A stretch of DNA of 11,620 nt from Tannerella sp. (lineage in GTDB: Bacteria > Bacteroidota > Bacteroidia > Bacteroidales > Tannerellaceae), in contig JAIRXI010000291.1 of NCBI GenBank assembly GCA_031268395.1, positions 1-11,620 of the forward strand, given 5' to 3'. Under the pieces are notes generated by a model that saw nothing but the letters and a program-made list of their open reading frames with translations, was not told the DNA's origin and did not search any database. The stretch's first letter is position 1. Each line of letters begins with the position of its first letter. Both the position numbers and the translations under genes were made by a program. Shown piece by piece: positions 6,504 to 11,409 of this stretch.

Positions 6504-7388
6504 TCAACTGTGCCGATGCGTTAATACTTGGATGCAATGCCGCAGACTTGTTTCCCAGTCAGGGATTGTCACCTGATAAGTCCGTTTTATTTTATCCTTG
6601 TTCAGGAGGCTGTATGCCGGACGGGCGGCGCGTGCGGGCCAGTCCTGCGTGGCAATCGGACGCACTTGACAGTCCAGTCCTGCCAGCGTCATTATTCTCA
6701 CGGCGAAATCGTACCAGGTACACATTCCGTCACCGGAATAATGGTAGATGCCTGGTACGGGTGTCGGACAGGCAATTATCGCCAGCATCATCGCCGCCAG
6801 ATCGCCTGCATAGGTGGGCGTTCCCGTCTGGTCGGAAACGACGTTTATTTCTTTCCGTTCGCTGCCCAGACGCAGCATGGTTTTTACGAAATTGGAGCCG
6901 AACTCGGAATACAGCCAGGCCGCACGGATGATCACCGCTTCCGGGCAGACCTGCTGCAACGCCATTTCTCCCGCCAGTTTGCTTTGTCCGTAAACCGACA
7001 GCGGACCGGGTGCGTCATCCTCGCGATAAGGATGCGCGGCACAGCCGTCGAACACGTAGTCGGTGGATACGTGAATCACCCCGATTCTCTCTGCCCGGGC
7101 CACCTCTCCGACCGTTCGCACGGCATCACGGTTGATACGCATGCACGCCTCCACATCGTCCTCCGCCCTGTCGACCGCCGTATAAGCCGCGCAGTTCAGC
7201 AGCCAGTCGATTTGACGGGCGCGGACAAAGCCGGCCAGTCGACCGGCGTCGCAGATATCCAGCGTATCAACATCCGTAAAATGAAACGTCGCTCCACCGC
7301 AATCCTGCGCCAGTGTCCGGATTGCATTGCCCAACTGTCCGTTTGCTCCGGTCACCAAAATATTCTTCTTCTGAAACCTTTCTGTCAT
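6504..7388 (-). CDS. rfbD: dTDP-4-dehydrorhamnose reductase
   Basis: The 294-residue protein is a short-chain dehydrogenase of the RmlD/RfbD type. It carries out the last step of dTDP-L-rhamnose synthesis in the cytoplasm, reducing dTDP-4-dehydro-L-rhamnose with NAD(P)H. The nucleotide-binding GANGQLG motif is at 14-20, STDYVFDG at 108-115, and the catalytic YxxxK pair is Tyr133 and Lys137 (YGQSKLAGE). The length matches the family. The start at 7388 adds about six residues before the usual NILVTGANG opening. The rest of the rhamnose pathway (rfbA, rfbB, rfbC) is not in the window. Its product could feed polysaccharide assembly, but the export genes nearby appear to be a separate transcript. 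Confidence 0.95.
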   Translation of the reverse strand: MTERFQKKNILVTGANGQLGNAIRTLAQDCGGATFHFTDVDTLDICDAGRLAGFVRARQIDWLLNCAAYTAVDRAEDDVEACMRINRDAVRTVGEVARAERIGVIHVSTDYVFDGCAAHPYREDDAPGPLSVYGQSKLAGEMALQQVCPEAVIIRAAWLYSEFGSNFVKTMLRLGSERKEINVVSDQTGTPTYAGDLAAMMLAIIACPTPVPGIYHYSGDGMCTWYDFAVRIMTLAGLDCQVRPIATQDWPARAARPAYSLLNKDKIKRTYQVTIPDWETSLRHCIQVLTHRHS

Positions 7389-7395
7389 TGCGGCG

Positions 7396-7425
7396 CAAAG
7401 TTACGCAAAATTCCTGTCAGACAAA
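7396..7425 (-). promoter_or_regulatory. Promoter of rfbD-prfC (Bacteroidetes sigma-ABfr type)
   Basis: On the minus strand TAACTTTG (7403-7396) matches the -7 consensus TAnnTTTG exactly, and TTTG (7425-7422) lies 18 bp upstream as the -33 element. The expected transcription start, 5-8 bases past the -7 box, falls at about 7388-7391. That is at or just before the ATG, so the message may be leaderless or nearly so. Confidence 0.65.
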
Positions 7426-7562
7426 GCAAAATAAATCACTTGCTTCCGTAATCGGAACCGTTGCCGGATGTGTGCGCCGATACATGGTTCTTAAAATCAA
7501 ACTCTTTTCAATGTCGAACAGGGGAGGGGAAAAACGGTTCCGGCCGGAGGTCCGGTTTCCCT

Positions 7563-7637
7563 GCTTAATAACTCATGTTACGCATCCACTGTGCCGGTAT
7601 GGAATTTGTTGCAGTGCGTACATCAGTTAATTAGTAA
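7563..7637. repeat. Short fold-back repeat, matching the ends of the element at 8086-8384
   Basis: ACTCATGTTACGCA on the left (7571-7584) is an imperfect inverted match to TGCGTACATCAGTTAAT on the right (7615-7631). Bases 7571-7597 match 8088-8114 with one difference. Bases 7595-7620 match 8344-8369 exactly (26 bp), and 7621-7630 match 8371-8380. The short copy therefore looks like both ends of the long element joined at CCGG, without its roughly 229-bp interior. Confidence 0.75.
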
Positions 7638-7701
7638 TGCTTACTTATCAGTTCGTTATTTATTATTCATTGTTCCCTGTTTATCGCTTCCCGTTCTCAA
7701 A

Positions 7702-7968
7702 TGCCTGGTATCAGGGACCAGATGAAAATCATCAGTGTACAGACAGCGGCCATCTGGGACCAGACTGCGGCAGTCATGGACCAGATGAATGTCAAAAACG
7801 GGAAACAGATTTCAATCTGGCCCCTGGAAGCCGTCATCTGGTCCCAGATGACCGTCAAAAACGGGAAATGGATTTTAATCTGGCCCCTGACAGCGGCAGT
7901 CTGGTCCCAGATGGCTGTTGCCTGTGTACTGATGATTTTCATCTGGTCCCTGATGCCGGGCGCCTGTC
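7702..7968. repeat. 21-bp repeat array that forms a large imperfect palindrome
   Basis: About twelve consecutive 21-bp units follow the loose, self-complementary form CCAGATGA(N5)TCATCTGG. TCTGGnnCCAGA-like dyads are centred at 7716.5, 7758.5, 7779.5, 7821.5, 7842.5, 7884.5, 7905.5 and 7947.5. The spacing alternates exactly 42 and 21 bp, and weaker dyads fill the missing positions at 7737.5 and 7926.5. Bases 7780-7842 and 7843-7905 are a tandem 63-bp repeat (about 51 of 63 identical). The whole array is also an inverted repeat about position 7832: 7707-7775 matches the complement of the segment ending near 7962 at about 61 of 69 bases. Long open frames exist on both strands, but all arise from the 21-bp period. 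I call no gene here. Confidence 0.9.
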
Positions 7969-8018
7969 GACAGCCACCCGTCATTTGCCGCCTGATTTCC
8001 TTCATTTCTCCGGTCATG

Positions 8019-8083
8019 TAAACACGGAGACACGGAGGACACAAAGAAAGGGATGCACGATTTCCTCCGTGTCTCCGTGTTTA
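8019..8083. repeat. Perfect 21-bp inverted repeat (long hairpin)
   Basis: Bases 8019-8039 and 8063-8083 are exact reverse complements with a 23-base loop. Each arm contains two copies of ACACGGAG-like sequence (ACACGGAG, ACACGGAGGA). There is no U-tract of terminator type on either side, so an intrinsic terminator is unlikely. The motif resembles the repeated CACGGAG/CACAGAG intergenic sequences known from many environmental bacterial genomes; I make that link from memory only. Confidence 0.85.
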
Positions 8084-8085
8084 AA

Positions 8086-8384
8086 TTACTCATGTTACGC
8101 ATCCACTGCGCCGGACACCGGCAAGCCCGCATGCCCGAAGGGCGTTATTTTCATAACCGCAGGCAAGCAAAGCGCAGCTGGCGGAAGGTATGGCAGCCGG
8201 CGGTTCGCTGCCTGATAAGGCAGGACGTCGCTGTCGACAGGGAAACGGTCCTGCCTTTCAGGCAGCCACCGTATGTTCGGGTCTTTCGCCGCAGGTCGCC
8301 GGCCTGCGGTTATGAAAATAATGTCCTTCGGACTTGGGCTTGTCGGTATGGAATTTGTTGCAGTGCGTAACATCAGTTAATAAG
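8086..8384. repeat. Fold-back element of about 300 bp (MITE-like)
   Basis: The outer ends are imperfect inverted repeats: CTCATGTTACGCA near 8089-8101 and, on the complement, CTGATGTTACGCA near 8374-8362. A second arm pair follows inward: 8118-8164 pairs with 8302-8346, including an exact 20-bp match between 8145-8164 and 8302-8321. An inner stem uses GCTGCCTG...GGCAGGAC (8207-8226) and its counterpart at 8248-8266. Open frames exist on both strands, but they mirror each other through the inverted repeat and resemble no protein. No transposase is encoded, so if mobile it would need one supplied in trans. A target-site duplication is not evident. Confidence 0.7.
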
Positions 8385-8385
8385 C

Positions 8386-8416
8386 AAAAAAAGCAGGATG
8401 CACTGTAGCATCCTGC
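8386..8416 (-). terminator. Intrinsic terminator of rpoD
   Basis: Read on the minus strand, GCAGGATGC (8416-8408) and GCATCCTGC (8401-8393) form a perfect 9-bp stem with a 6-base loop, followed by seven T residues (8392-8386). It lies about 45 bp after the rpoD stop. Confidence 0.92.
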
Positions 8417-8460
8417 CTTCCTGTCAATATACGGCAAAATATGTCAACCCGTCTTGTCTT

Positions 8461-9321
8461 TTACCCCAAGTATGATTTCAGCAATTTGCTGCGCGAACCC
8501 TGCCTCAGCCGGCGAATCGCCTTTTCTTTAATCTGACGCACCCGCTCGCGGGTAAGACCAAACTTGTCGCCAATCTCTTCCAGTGTTACTTCCTGGCATC
8601 CAATACCGAAAAACATCTTGATGATGTCGCATTCCCGTTCGGTCAGCGTAGCCAGCGCCCGGTCAATTTCTTTCGACAGGGATTCATTCATCAGCGTTCC
8701 GTCGGCCACGGGAGCATCGTCATTCACCAGGACGTCCAGCAAACTGTTGTCTTCGCCTTCCACAAACGGCGCATCCACAGAGATAGACCGTCCGGACACT
8801 TTCAGCGTATCTGAAATCTTGTCTACCGGAATATCCAGTTCTTCCGCCAGTTCTTCGGCCGACGGTCTGCGTTCATTTTCCTGCTCAAAGCGCGAAAATG
8901 CCTTGCTGATTTTGTTCAACGAACCTACCTGATTCAACGGTAAACGCACGATGCGCGACTGCTCTGCCAGCGCCTGCAAAATGGATTGACGAATCCACCA
9001 GACGGCATAGGAAATGAACTTGAATCCACGCGTTTCATCGAATTTCTCCGCAGCCTTAATCAAACCCAGATTTCCTTCATTGATCAGGTCAGGCAGACTC
9101 AGTCCCTGATTTTGATACTGCTTGGCCACGGATACGACGAAACGCAAATTTGCCCGCGTCAGTTTCTCTAACGCTTTCCGGTCTCCTTTCTTAATGGCCT
9201 GCGCCAGTTCTACCTCTTCCTCAACCGTAATAAGATCTTCACGACCAATCTCTTGGAGATACTTGTCCAAGGAGGCACTTTCCCGATTGGTAATGGACTT
9301 TGTTATCTTTAGCTGTCTCAT
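8461..9321 (-). CDS. rpoD: Primary sigma factor RpoD (sigma-ABfr type)
   Basis: The 286-residue protein is the short form of the housekeeping sigma factor found in Bacteroidetes, lacking region 1.1 and the large non-conserved insert of E. coli sigma-70. Region 1.2 is near 17-47 ([19 protein letters not shown]). Region 2 is at about 53-121 with [30 protein letters not shown] and the -10-reading helix [16 protein letters not shown]. Region 3 spans about 130-205. Region 4 is near 220-275 with the helix-turn-helix [20 protein letters not shown]. It directs core RNA polymerase to the TTTG/TAnnTTTG promoters, several of which occur in this window. It is transcribed alone, with a promoter in the gap from htrA and a strong terminator downstream. 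Confidence 0.97.
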
Positions 9322-11336: not shown

Positions 11337-11409
11337 GACTCCGTAGCTCAGTTGGTAGAGCAAATGACTCTTAATCATTGGGTCGAGAGTTCGAGCCTCT
11401 CCGGGGTCA
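11337..11409 (+). tRNA. tRNA-Lys (anticodon CTT)
   Basis: This is a complete 73-base cloverleaf. The acceptor stem GACTCCG pairs with CGGGGTC (one G-T pair), with discriminator A at 11409. The D arm is GCTC...GAGC. The anticodon stem is AATGA/TCATT with loop CTCTTAA, placing CTT at 11370-11372. The T arm is GAGAG-TTCGAGC-CTCTC. No CCA is encoded, so it must be added after transcription. Confidence 0.97.

Follow-up and report, generated by a model that had tools for sequence, protein, structure and literature searches.

Iteron and operator arrays carry repeated sites at whole-turn spacing, one word being read by one protein, and REPIN/RAYT systems combine dispersed palindromic repeats with an associated gene. 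In a literature search outside which most subscription journals lay, no earlier description came closer to the locus reported here than BrickBuilt (PMC4596501), a MITE minisatellite of Porphyromonas gingivalis with a 23-nt unit. According to its description, one consensus runs across 19 elements, no BLASTn match is given outside the species, copy number is variable, and a leader and a tail carry small inverted ends (PMC4596501).

The window, i.e. the whole stretch of 11,620 nucleotides that was analysed, contained a block of 259 bases that lay in an intergenic gap of a Tannerella-like bacterium, with an ordinary gene on either side. As in BrickBuilt (PMC4596501), blocks of this kind were intergenic and dispersed, consisted of short tandem dyad units and gave long predicted stem-loops. 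Set against the same published description, they differed in their tandem unit (21 bp instead of 23 nt in the window, and multiples of 21 bp in the gene-linked blocks), in their words, which varied from block to block, and in their setting, many of them preceding members of a single gene family across several bacterial families. They resembled phased arrays in having sites at whole turns whose spacing was kept while the sequence changed; unlike in iteron or operator arrays, the word was free and the pitch fixed. Dispersed palindromic repeats and a gene are also found in REPIN/RAYT, but the tandem blocks were longer here and, as the linked protein fell below all Pfam cut-offs, no transposase domain was recognised in it, unlike in RAYT. 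The window block comprised the following features.

7703-7961, no strand: whole block, a single inverted repeat built from 21-bp steps about an axis at 7832
7703-7789, no strand: left inverted-repeat arm, 86% complementary to 7875-7961
7875-7961, no strand: right arm of the inverted repeat, 86% complementary to the left arm
7711-7722, no strand: dyad 1, centre 7716.5, one mismatch to TCTGGNNCCAGA
7753-7764, no strand: dyad 2, centre 7758.5, perfect TCTGGNNCCAGA
7774-7785, no strand: dyad 3, centre 7779.5, two mismatches to TCTGGNNCCAGA
7816-7827, no strand: dyad 4, centre 7821.5, two mismatches to TCTGGNNCCAGA
7837-7848, no strand: dyad 5, centre 7842.5, perfect TCTGGNNCCAGA
7879-7890, no strand: dyad 6, centre 7884.5, one mismatch to TCTGGNNCCAGA
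7900-7911, no strand: dyad 7, centre 7905.5, perfect TCTGGNNCCAGA
7942-7953, no strand: dyad 8, centre 7947.5, one mismatch to TCTGGNNCCAGA

The original prediction had placed eight dyads at these centres, and a search for TCTGGNNCCAGA with up to two mismatches recovered all of them in one 21-bp residue class: eight of the nine matches in the window fell at 7711-7953 (three perfect, three with one mismatch and two with two). Shuffling the whole window yielded 4.36 matches (sd 2.21), with nine reached in 5 of 200 shuffles; the dyad count alone is modest, and the single residue class is the striking part. A tandem-repeat finder (TRF), one of the checks proposed with the prediction, reported periods 21 and 63 in the block. 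Complementarity within units was no better than between units (0.52 and 0.51, respectively; p = 0.475), and independent dyads were dropped as the conserved unit in the window. The whole-block symmetry score reached 59, compared with a maximum of 44 in 200 permutations of unit order, for a region centred on its best axis, a choice that biases the comparison towards the observed score. The mirror of this block is better conserved than its unit dyads, which are imperfect and derivative. Since a 21-bp direct repeat combined with one mirror must give mirrors every 10.5 bp, the lattice first noticed follows from these two properties; its positions stood, whereas its symmetry belongs to the whole inverted repeat and not to separate dyads. 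Folded as RNA, the block gave -179.3 kcal/mol, compared with -93.3 (sd 5.5) for shuffled sequences (z = -15.75; none of 200 as good). The Rfam search returned no match for the block, a tRNA at 11337-11409 being the only feature to reach its cut-off.

Whole-block symmetry is the outcome that copying of one arm from the other would give, and it therefore favours template switching, which can create and maintain hairpins according to PMC8794818. A neutral minisatellite, in which slippage copies 21-bp units, template switching equalises the arms and the pitch is inherited without function, is the main and serious rival explanation, albeit a somewhat unlikely one. For the window copy in particular, a decaying minisatellite may be the origin.

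Two further copies with the same word were found in the same genome, on contigs C38 (84%) and C321 (79%), and contigs C327 and C85 showed related layouts with other words. The flanks and neighbouring genes of the window block are listed below.

8461-9321, minus strand: sigma-70 factor gene, on one side of the gap holding the block
6504-7388, minus strand: RmlD-like reductase gene, on the other side of the gap
7627-7702, minus strand: gene-facing flank, which in C321 separates the block from the linked gene and has an extra 21-bp tandem copy there
7962-8080, no strand: other flank, common to C38 and C321, with a second 21-bp tandem duplication in C321
7562-7637, no strand: short MITE-like repeat, its ends matching those of 8084-8387
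8084-8387, no strand: longer MITE-like repeat with ends as in 7562-7637, present in whole or partial copies on other contigs of the genome
8013-8089, no strand: ACACGGAGACACGGAGG hairpin repeat, of high copy number across the genome

When the window, C38 and C321 copies were aligned (C327 and C85 being left out), all three internal indels measured exactly 21 bp, one lying in the block and two being tandem duplications in the flanks, outside the dyads. The original prediction had named indels of other sizes as one result that would speak against it, and these same-genome copies had none. The two duplications in non-dyad flanks are, at the same time, an observation in favour of the minisatellite.

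The flanks also bear on a non-autonomous mobile element, a BrickBuilt-like MITE with the array as internal filler. The window block is bordered by MITE-like repeats, the C38 copy has the same arrangement with junctions in common, and blocks are dispersed and mostly intergenic, all of which would suit such an element. Against it, the period was 21 and not 23, and inspection by eye did not reveal that MITE in the displayed flanks of gene-linked blocks; we hold this explanation to be unlikely. The MITE-like ends on either side of the window block belong to separate repeats. The window copy had no linked gene, and its distance to the next gene was 328 bp (13 mod 21), off the register usual for gene-linked blocks. 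It probably lost its gene and was carried or rearranged with the flanking MITE-like repeats.

Of 28 rmlD loci compared within the genus, over limited flanks, the one in this genome alone had sigma-70 next to rmlD (window 6504-9321): no rpoD was found beside rmlD in the other 27 (flanks of at most 1.5 kb, shorter in some), and these loci yielded no orthologous empty site. Arrays were also seen upstream of two rmlD homologues, a 21-bp dyad array in G030 (L272:3012-3177), a single-contig genome where the linked family was not found, and a 23-bp dyad array in G004 (L247:2475-2632).

Beyond its own genome, the sequence of the window block matched at E ≤ 0.01 in 2 of 60 relatives, over at most 26 bp each, and by this comparison its letters are not conserved. 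A linker pattern at 21-bp spacing occurred in 23 of the 41 same-genus genomes and its reversed control in none of them, although several single matches resembled one shared coding sequence and not arrays. Blocks in rows of 21 had differing cores (CTCTATAGAG, CTCCCGGGAG, CTCGCGCGAG, CTGTACACAG and others) at one pitch. The original prediction had looked to other loci for a constant phase with changing sequence, and this was what they displayed, unrelated words being spaced by the same 21 bp. Whole-block symmetry was significant (p < 0.05) in 16 of 34 blocks (8 of 42 sequences were left out, and each region had its best axis at the centre). Unit dyads were weak overall: complementarity was higher within than between units in 45 of 66 blocks, with p < 0.05 in 16 of the 66.

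The commonest setting found for the blocks was directly upstream of one conserved, unnamed protein family of about 325 residues, which recurs beside them and whose members are about 50% identical to each other. Domain searches of the linked protein gave nothing near the cut-off in Pfam, NCBIfam or PADLOC, and comparison with the PDB gave no clear match, only weak coiled-coil-like ones. It had 302 relatives at E ≤ 1e-3 and, among the 120 listed, those with names were hypothetical proteins. The family was present in 15 of 41 same-genus genomes; a collection of viral contigs contained no relative by the patterns used, and a phage origin of the linked gene was dropped on this ground. The N terminus was hydrophobic in 40 of 50 members and the protein acidic (median net charge -10.5) and, judged by these sequence properties, it is not an obvious DNA binder. 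A genome scan located 67 loci of the linked gene in records titled Tannerella, Tannerellaceae, Prevotella, Prevotellaceae, Odoribacteraceae, Dysgonamonadaceae, Proteiniphilum, Bacteroidales and Planctomycetaceae, the last of which probably reflects mis-binning. In the window's own genome, all seven long copies had an upstream block, each with differing words; the C321 copy matched the query from residue 51 only, and an eighth match, on contig C144, was a fragment. Apart from the linked gene with its block, the only recurrent neighbours found were ORFs in reverse frame and a few ORFs that we take to be SusC/SusD-like. At L052:2296-4911 and L053:1680-4835, long ORFs that are presumably SusC-like followed the linked gene and had an N-terminal stretch in common.

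Upstream of the linked gene, lag 21 was the best of lags 13-33 in 44 of 56 copies, compared with 1 of 44 in the downstream control; 11 of the 67 loci, with starts less than 150 bp from a contig end, were skipped, and many loci lay on the same contigs as the earlier same-genus gene-linked loci and are not independent of them. The 12 failures included eight fragments, L199, which preferred lag 22, the weak L203 and L224, and L178, a clean exception with a full-length linked gene and no array. TRF applied to 51 upstream regions reported period 21 in 21 of them, 42 in 12, 63 in 12 and 22 in one; 45 of 46 calls near multiples of 21 were thus exactly 21, 42 or 63, with a filter that kept periods within one or two bases of these values and left five regions without a call. 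The spacing kept among the same-genome copies was not exact throughout: blocks L127 and L139 had occasional 1-bp slips and 16 of the 46 upstream calls contained some indels (30 had none), which counts against the original prediction.

The register relative to the start codon was also often fixed: of 31 scorable blocks, 18 had their dyads centred at 7 mod 21 relative to the ATG (the other 20 of 51 regions fell under the symmetry threshold), and the spacer between block and ATG was mostly not conserved in sequence. Common descent with few spacer indels could add to this fixed register. An exact n × 21 pitch upstream of a gene family with about 50% identity, despite unrelated words, argues against the neutral minisatellite, as do the ATG register and the downstream control. 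Many gene-linked blocks closed with a T run that lay some 60 bases ahead of the ATG. The promoter motif TAnnTTTG was found between block and gene in 1 of 48 cases (1.2 in shuffles). Predicted DNA curvature exceeded that of shuffles in 28 of 40 blocks; this was a weak trend only, and curvature was set aside as an explanation.

Two readings at the level of the transcript were weighed against these blocks. If the repeat were coding, 21 bp would be seven codons of a heptad-repeat protein, and one forward frame indeed lacked stops in 32 of the 51 gene-linked blocks, compared with 18 and 5 for the others; the constant phase of that frame relative to the ATG follows from that of the spacer. The synonymous ratio in the candidate frame (1.13) showed no excess over the other frames (1.15 and 1.12) or the opposite strand (1.09-1.39), stops interrupted the frame in L150/L182, L193 and L223, many heptads contained proline and no common start codon was seen in the loci inspected. 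Coding heptads were rejected as extremely unlikely. A transcribed block whose long hairpin serves the linked gene as a terminator or an attenuator would fit the strong predicted fold of the window block and the T run of many gene-linked blocks. The window copy, however, had no such run, RNA pairing gives the 21-bp pitch no reason, and arrays in G030 were not enriched between convergent genes. On the gene strand, arm mismatches were G.T in 163 cases and A.C in 215 (26 of 51 blocks), a bias opposite to tolerance of wobble G.U pairs to which A-rich composition may contribute, and 11 loci favoured G.T compared with 13 for A.C. A sense-strand RNA hairpin was not supported and is very unlikely.

The background of such arrays was estimated by a TRF census (score ≥ 100, at least 3 copies) of samples chosen without regard to the window block. 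Three same-genus samples contained 86 arrays in 764 kb (G030, 61 in 400 kb; G062, 14 in 193 kb; G000, 11 in 171 kb), with periods of 20-24 in 12, 40-44 in 60, 25-39 in one and other values in 13. Two more same-genus samples, of 80 kb and 101 kb, had 2 arrays each, and none were found in about 604 kb from other genera (241 kb from the same family and 362 kb from other families). By a simple gene finder, 47 of 53 arrays in G030 lay outside predicted genes, though the sample was 78% coding; their settings were convergent in 7 cases, divergent in 14 and tandem in 24. The abundance of arrays of this sort within the genus, mainly outside genes, is in keeping with the neutral minisatellite. The G030 samples L290-L309 had about 15 tandem arrays per 100 kb, mainly of period 41-42 and each with its own sequence. 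In the window's own genome, where the 21-bp type occurs, five tandem arrays had a 23-bp period, the BrickBuilt unit length (L330:1-196, L331:364-465, L331:3399-3598, L336:9208-9319 and L349:4633-4722), and a 69-bp tandem repeat lay within an open frame of 731 codons (L336:581-1754). As periods of 22, 23 and 41 bp are present, exactly 10.5 bp per turn is no general rule: the claim of two exact turns of B-DNA fits the window and the gene-linked blocks, and 23-bp and 41-bp arrays coexist with them in the genome. An exact 21 is a property of the gene-linked blocks and of the window.

The window block is, with high probability, a member of a family of spacing-constrained, non-coding DNA arrays. The best explanation, to which we assign a probability of roughly 50%, is that it belongs, as a solo copy, to a dispersed, DNA-level phased-array family read by a candidate protein. 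That a protein bound along one helix face is the reason for the 21-bp pitch is a step we infer, at slightly less than even odds. Each unit would have to show the same helix face, so that the pitch is retained; a dimeric or oligomeric DNA-binding protein would align along one side of the array, and once bound it would control the linked gene or organise the local DNA. Given that seven copies in one genome have different words, the putative protein probably reads shape and spacing over letters. More tentatively, blocks and gene may form a two-part module, for which no description was found in the literature searched: a gene for a probably membrane-anchored protein and an upstream 21-bp lattice whose pitch, mirror and ATG register would be selected and whose letters would not, each gene copy having its own word and solo lattices such as that of the window being satellites. 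What defines such a module, as a regulatory or architectural element, would be helical geometry and not sequence.

Whereas it is usually by its letters that a DNA element is identified, in these blocks the letters are replaced and the two-turn pitch, the mirror and often the distance to the ATG persist, in genomes assigned to several families. Should the pitch not be kept by selection, the blocks would show how a mutational process can imitate a geometry code. Should it be so kept, these loci would provide a natural setting in which to study regulation coded by geometry, and a way into a large unnamed family of proteins, with its 302 relatives.
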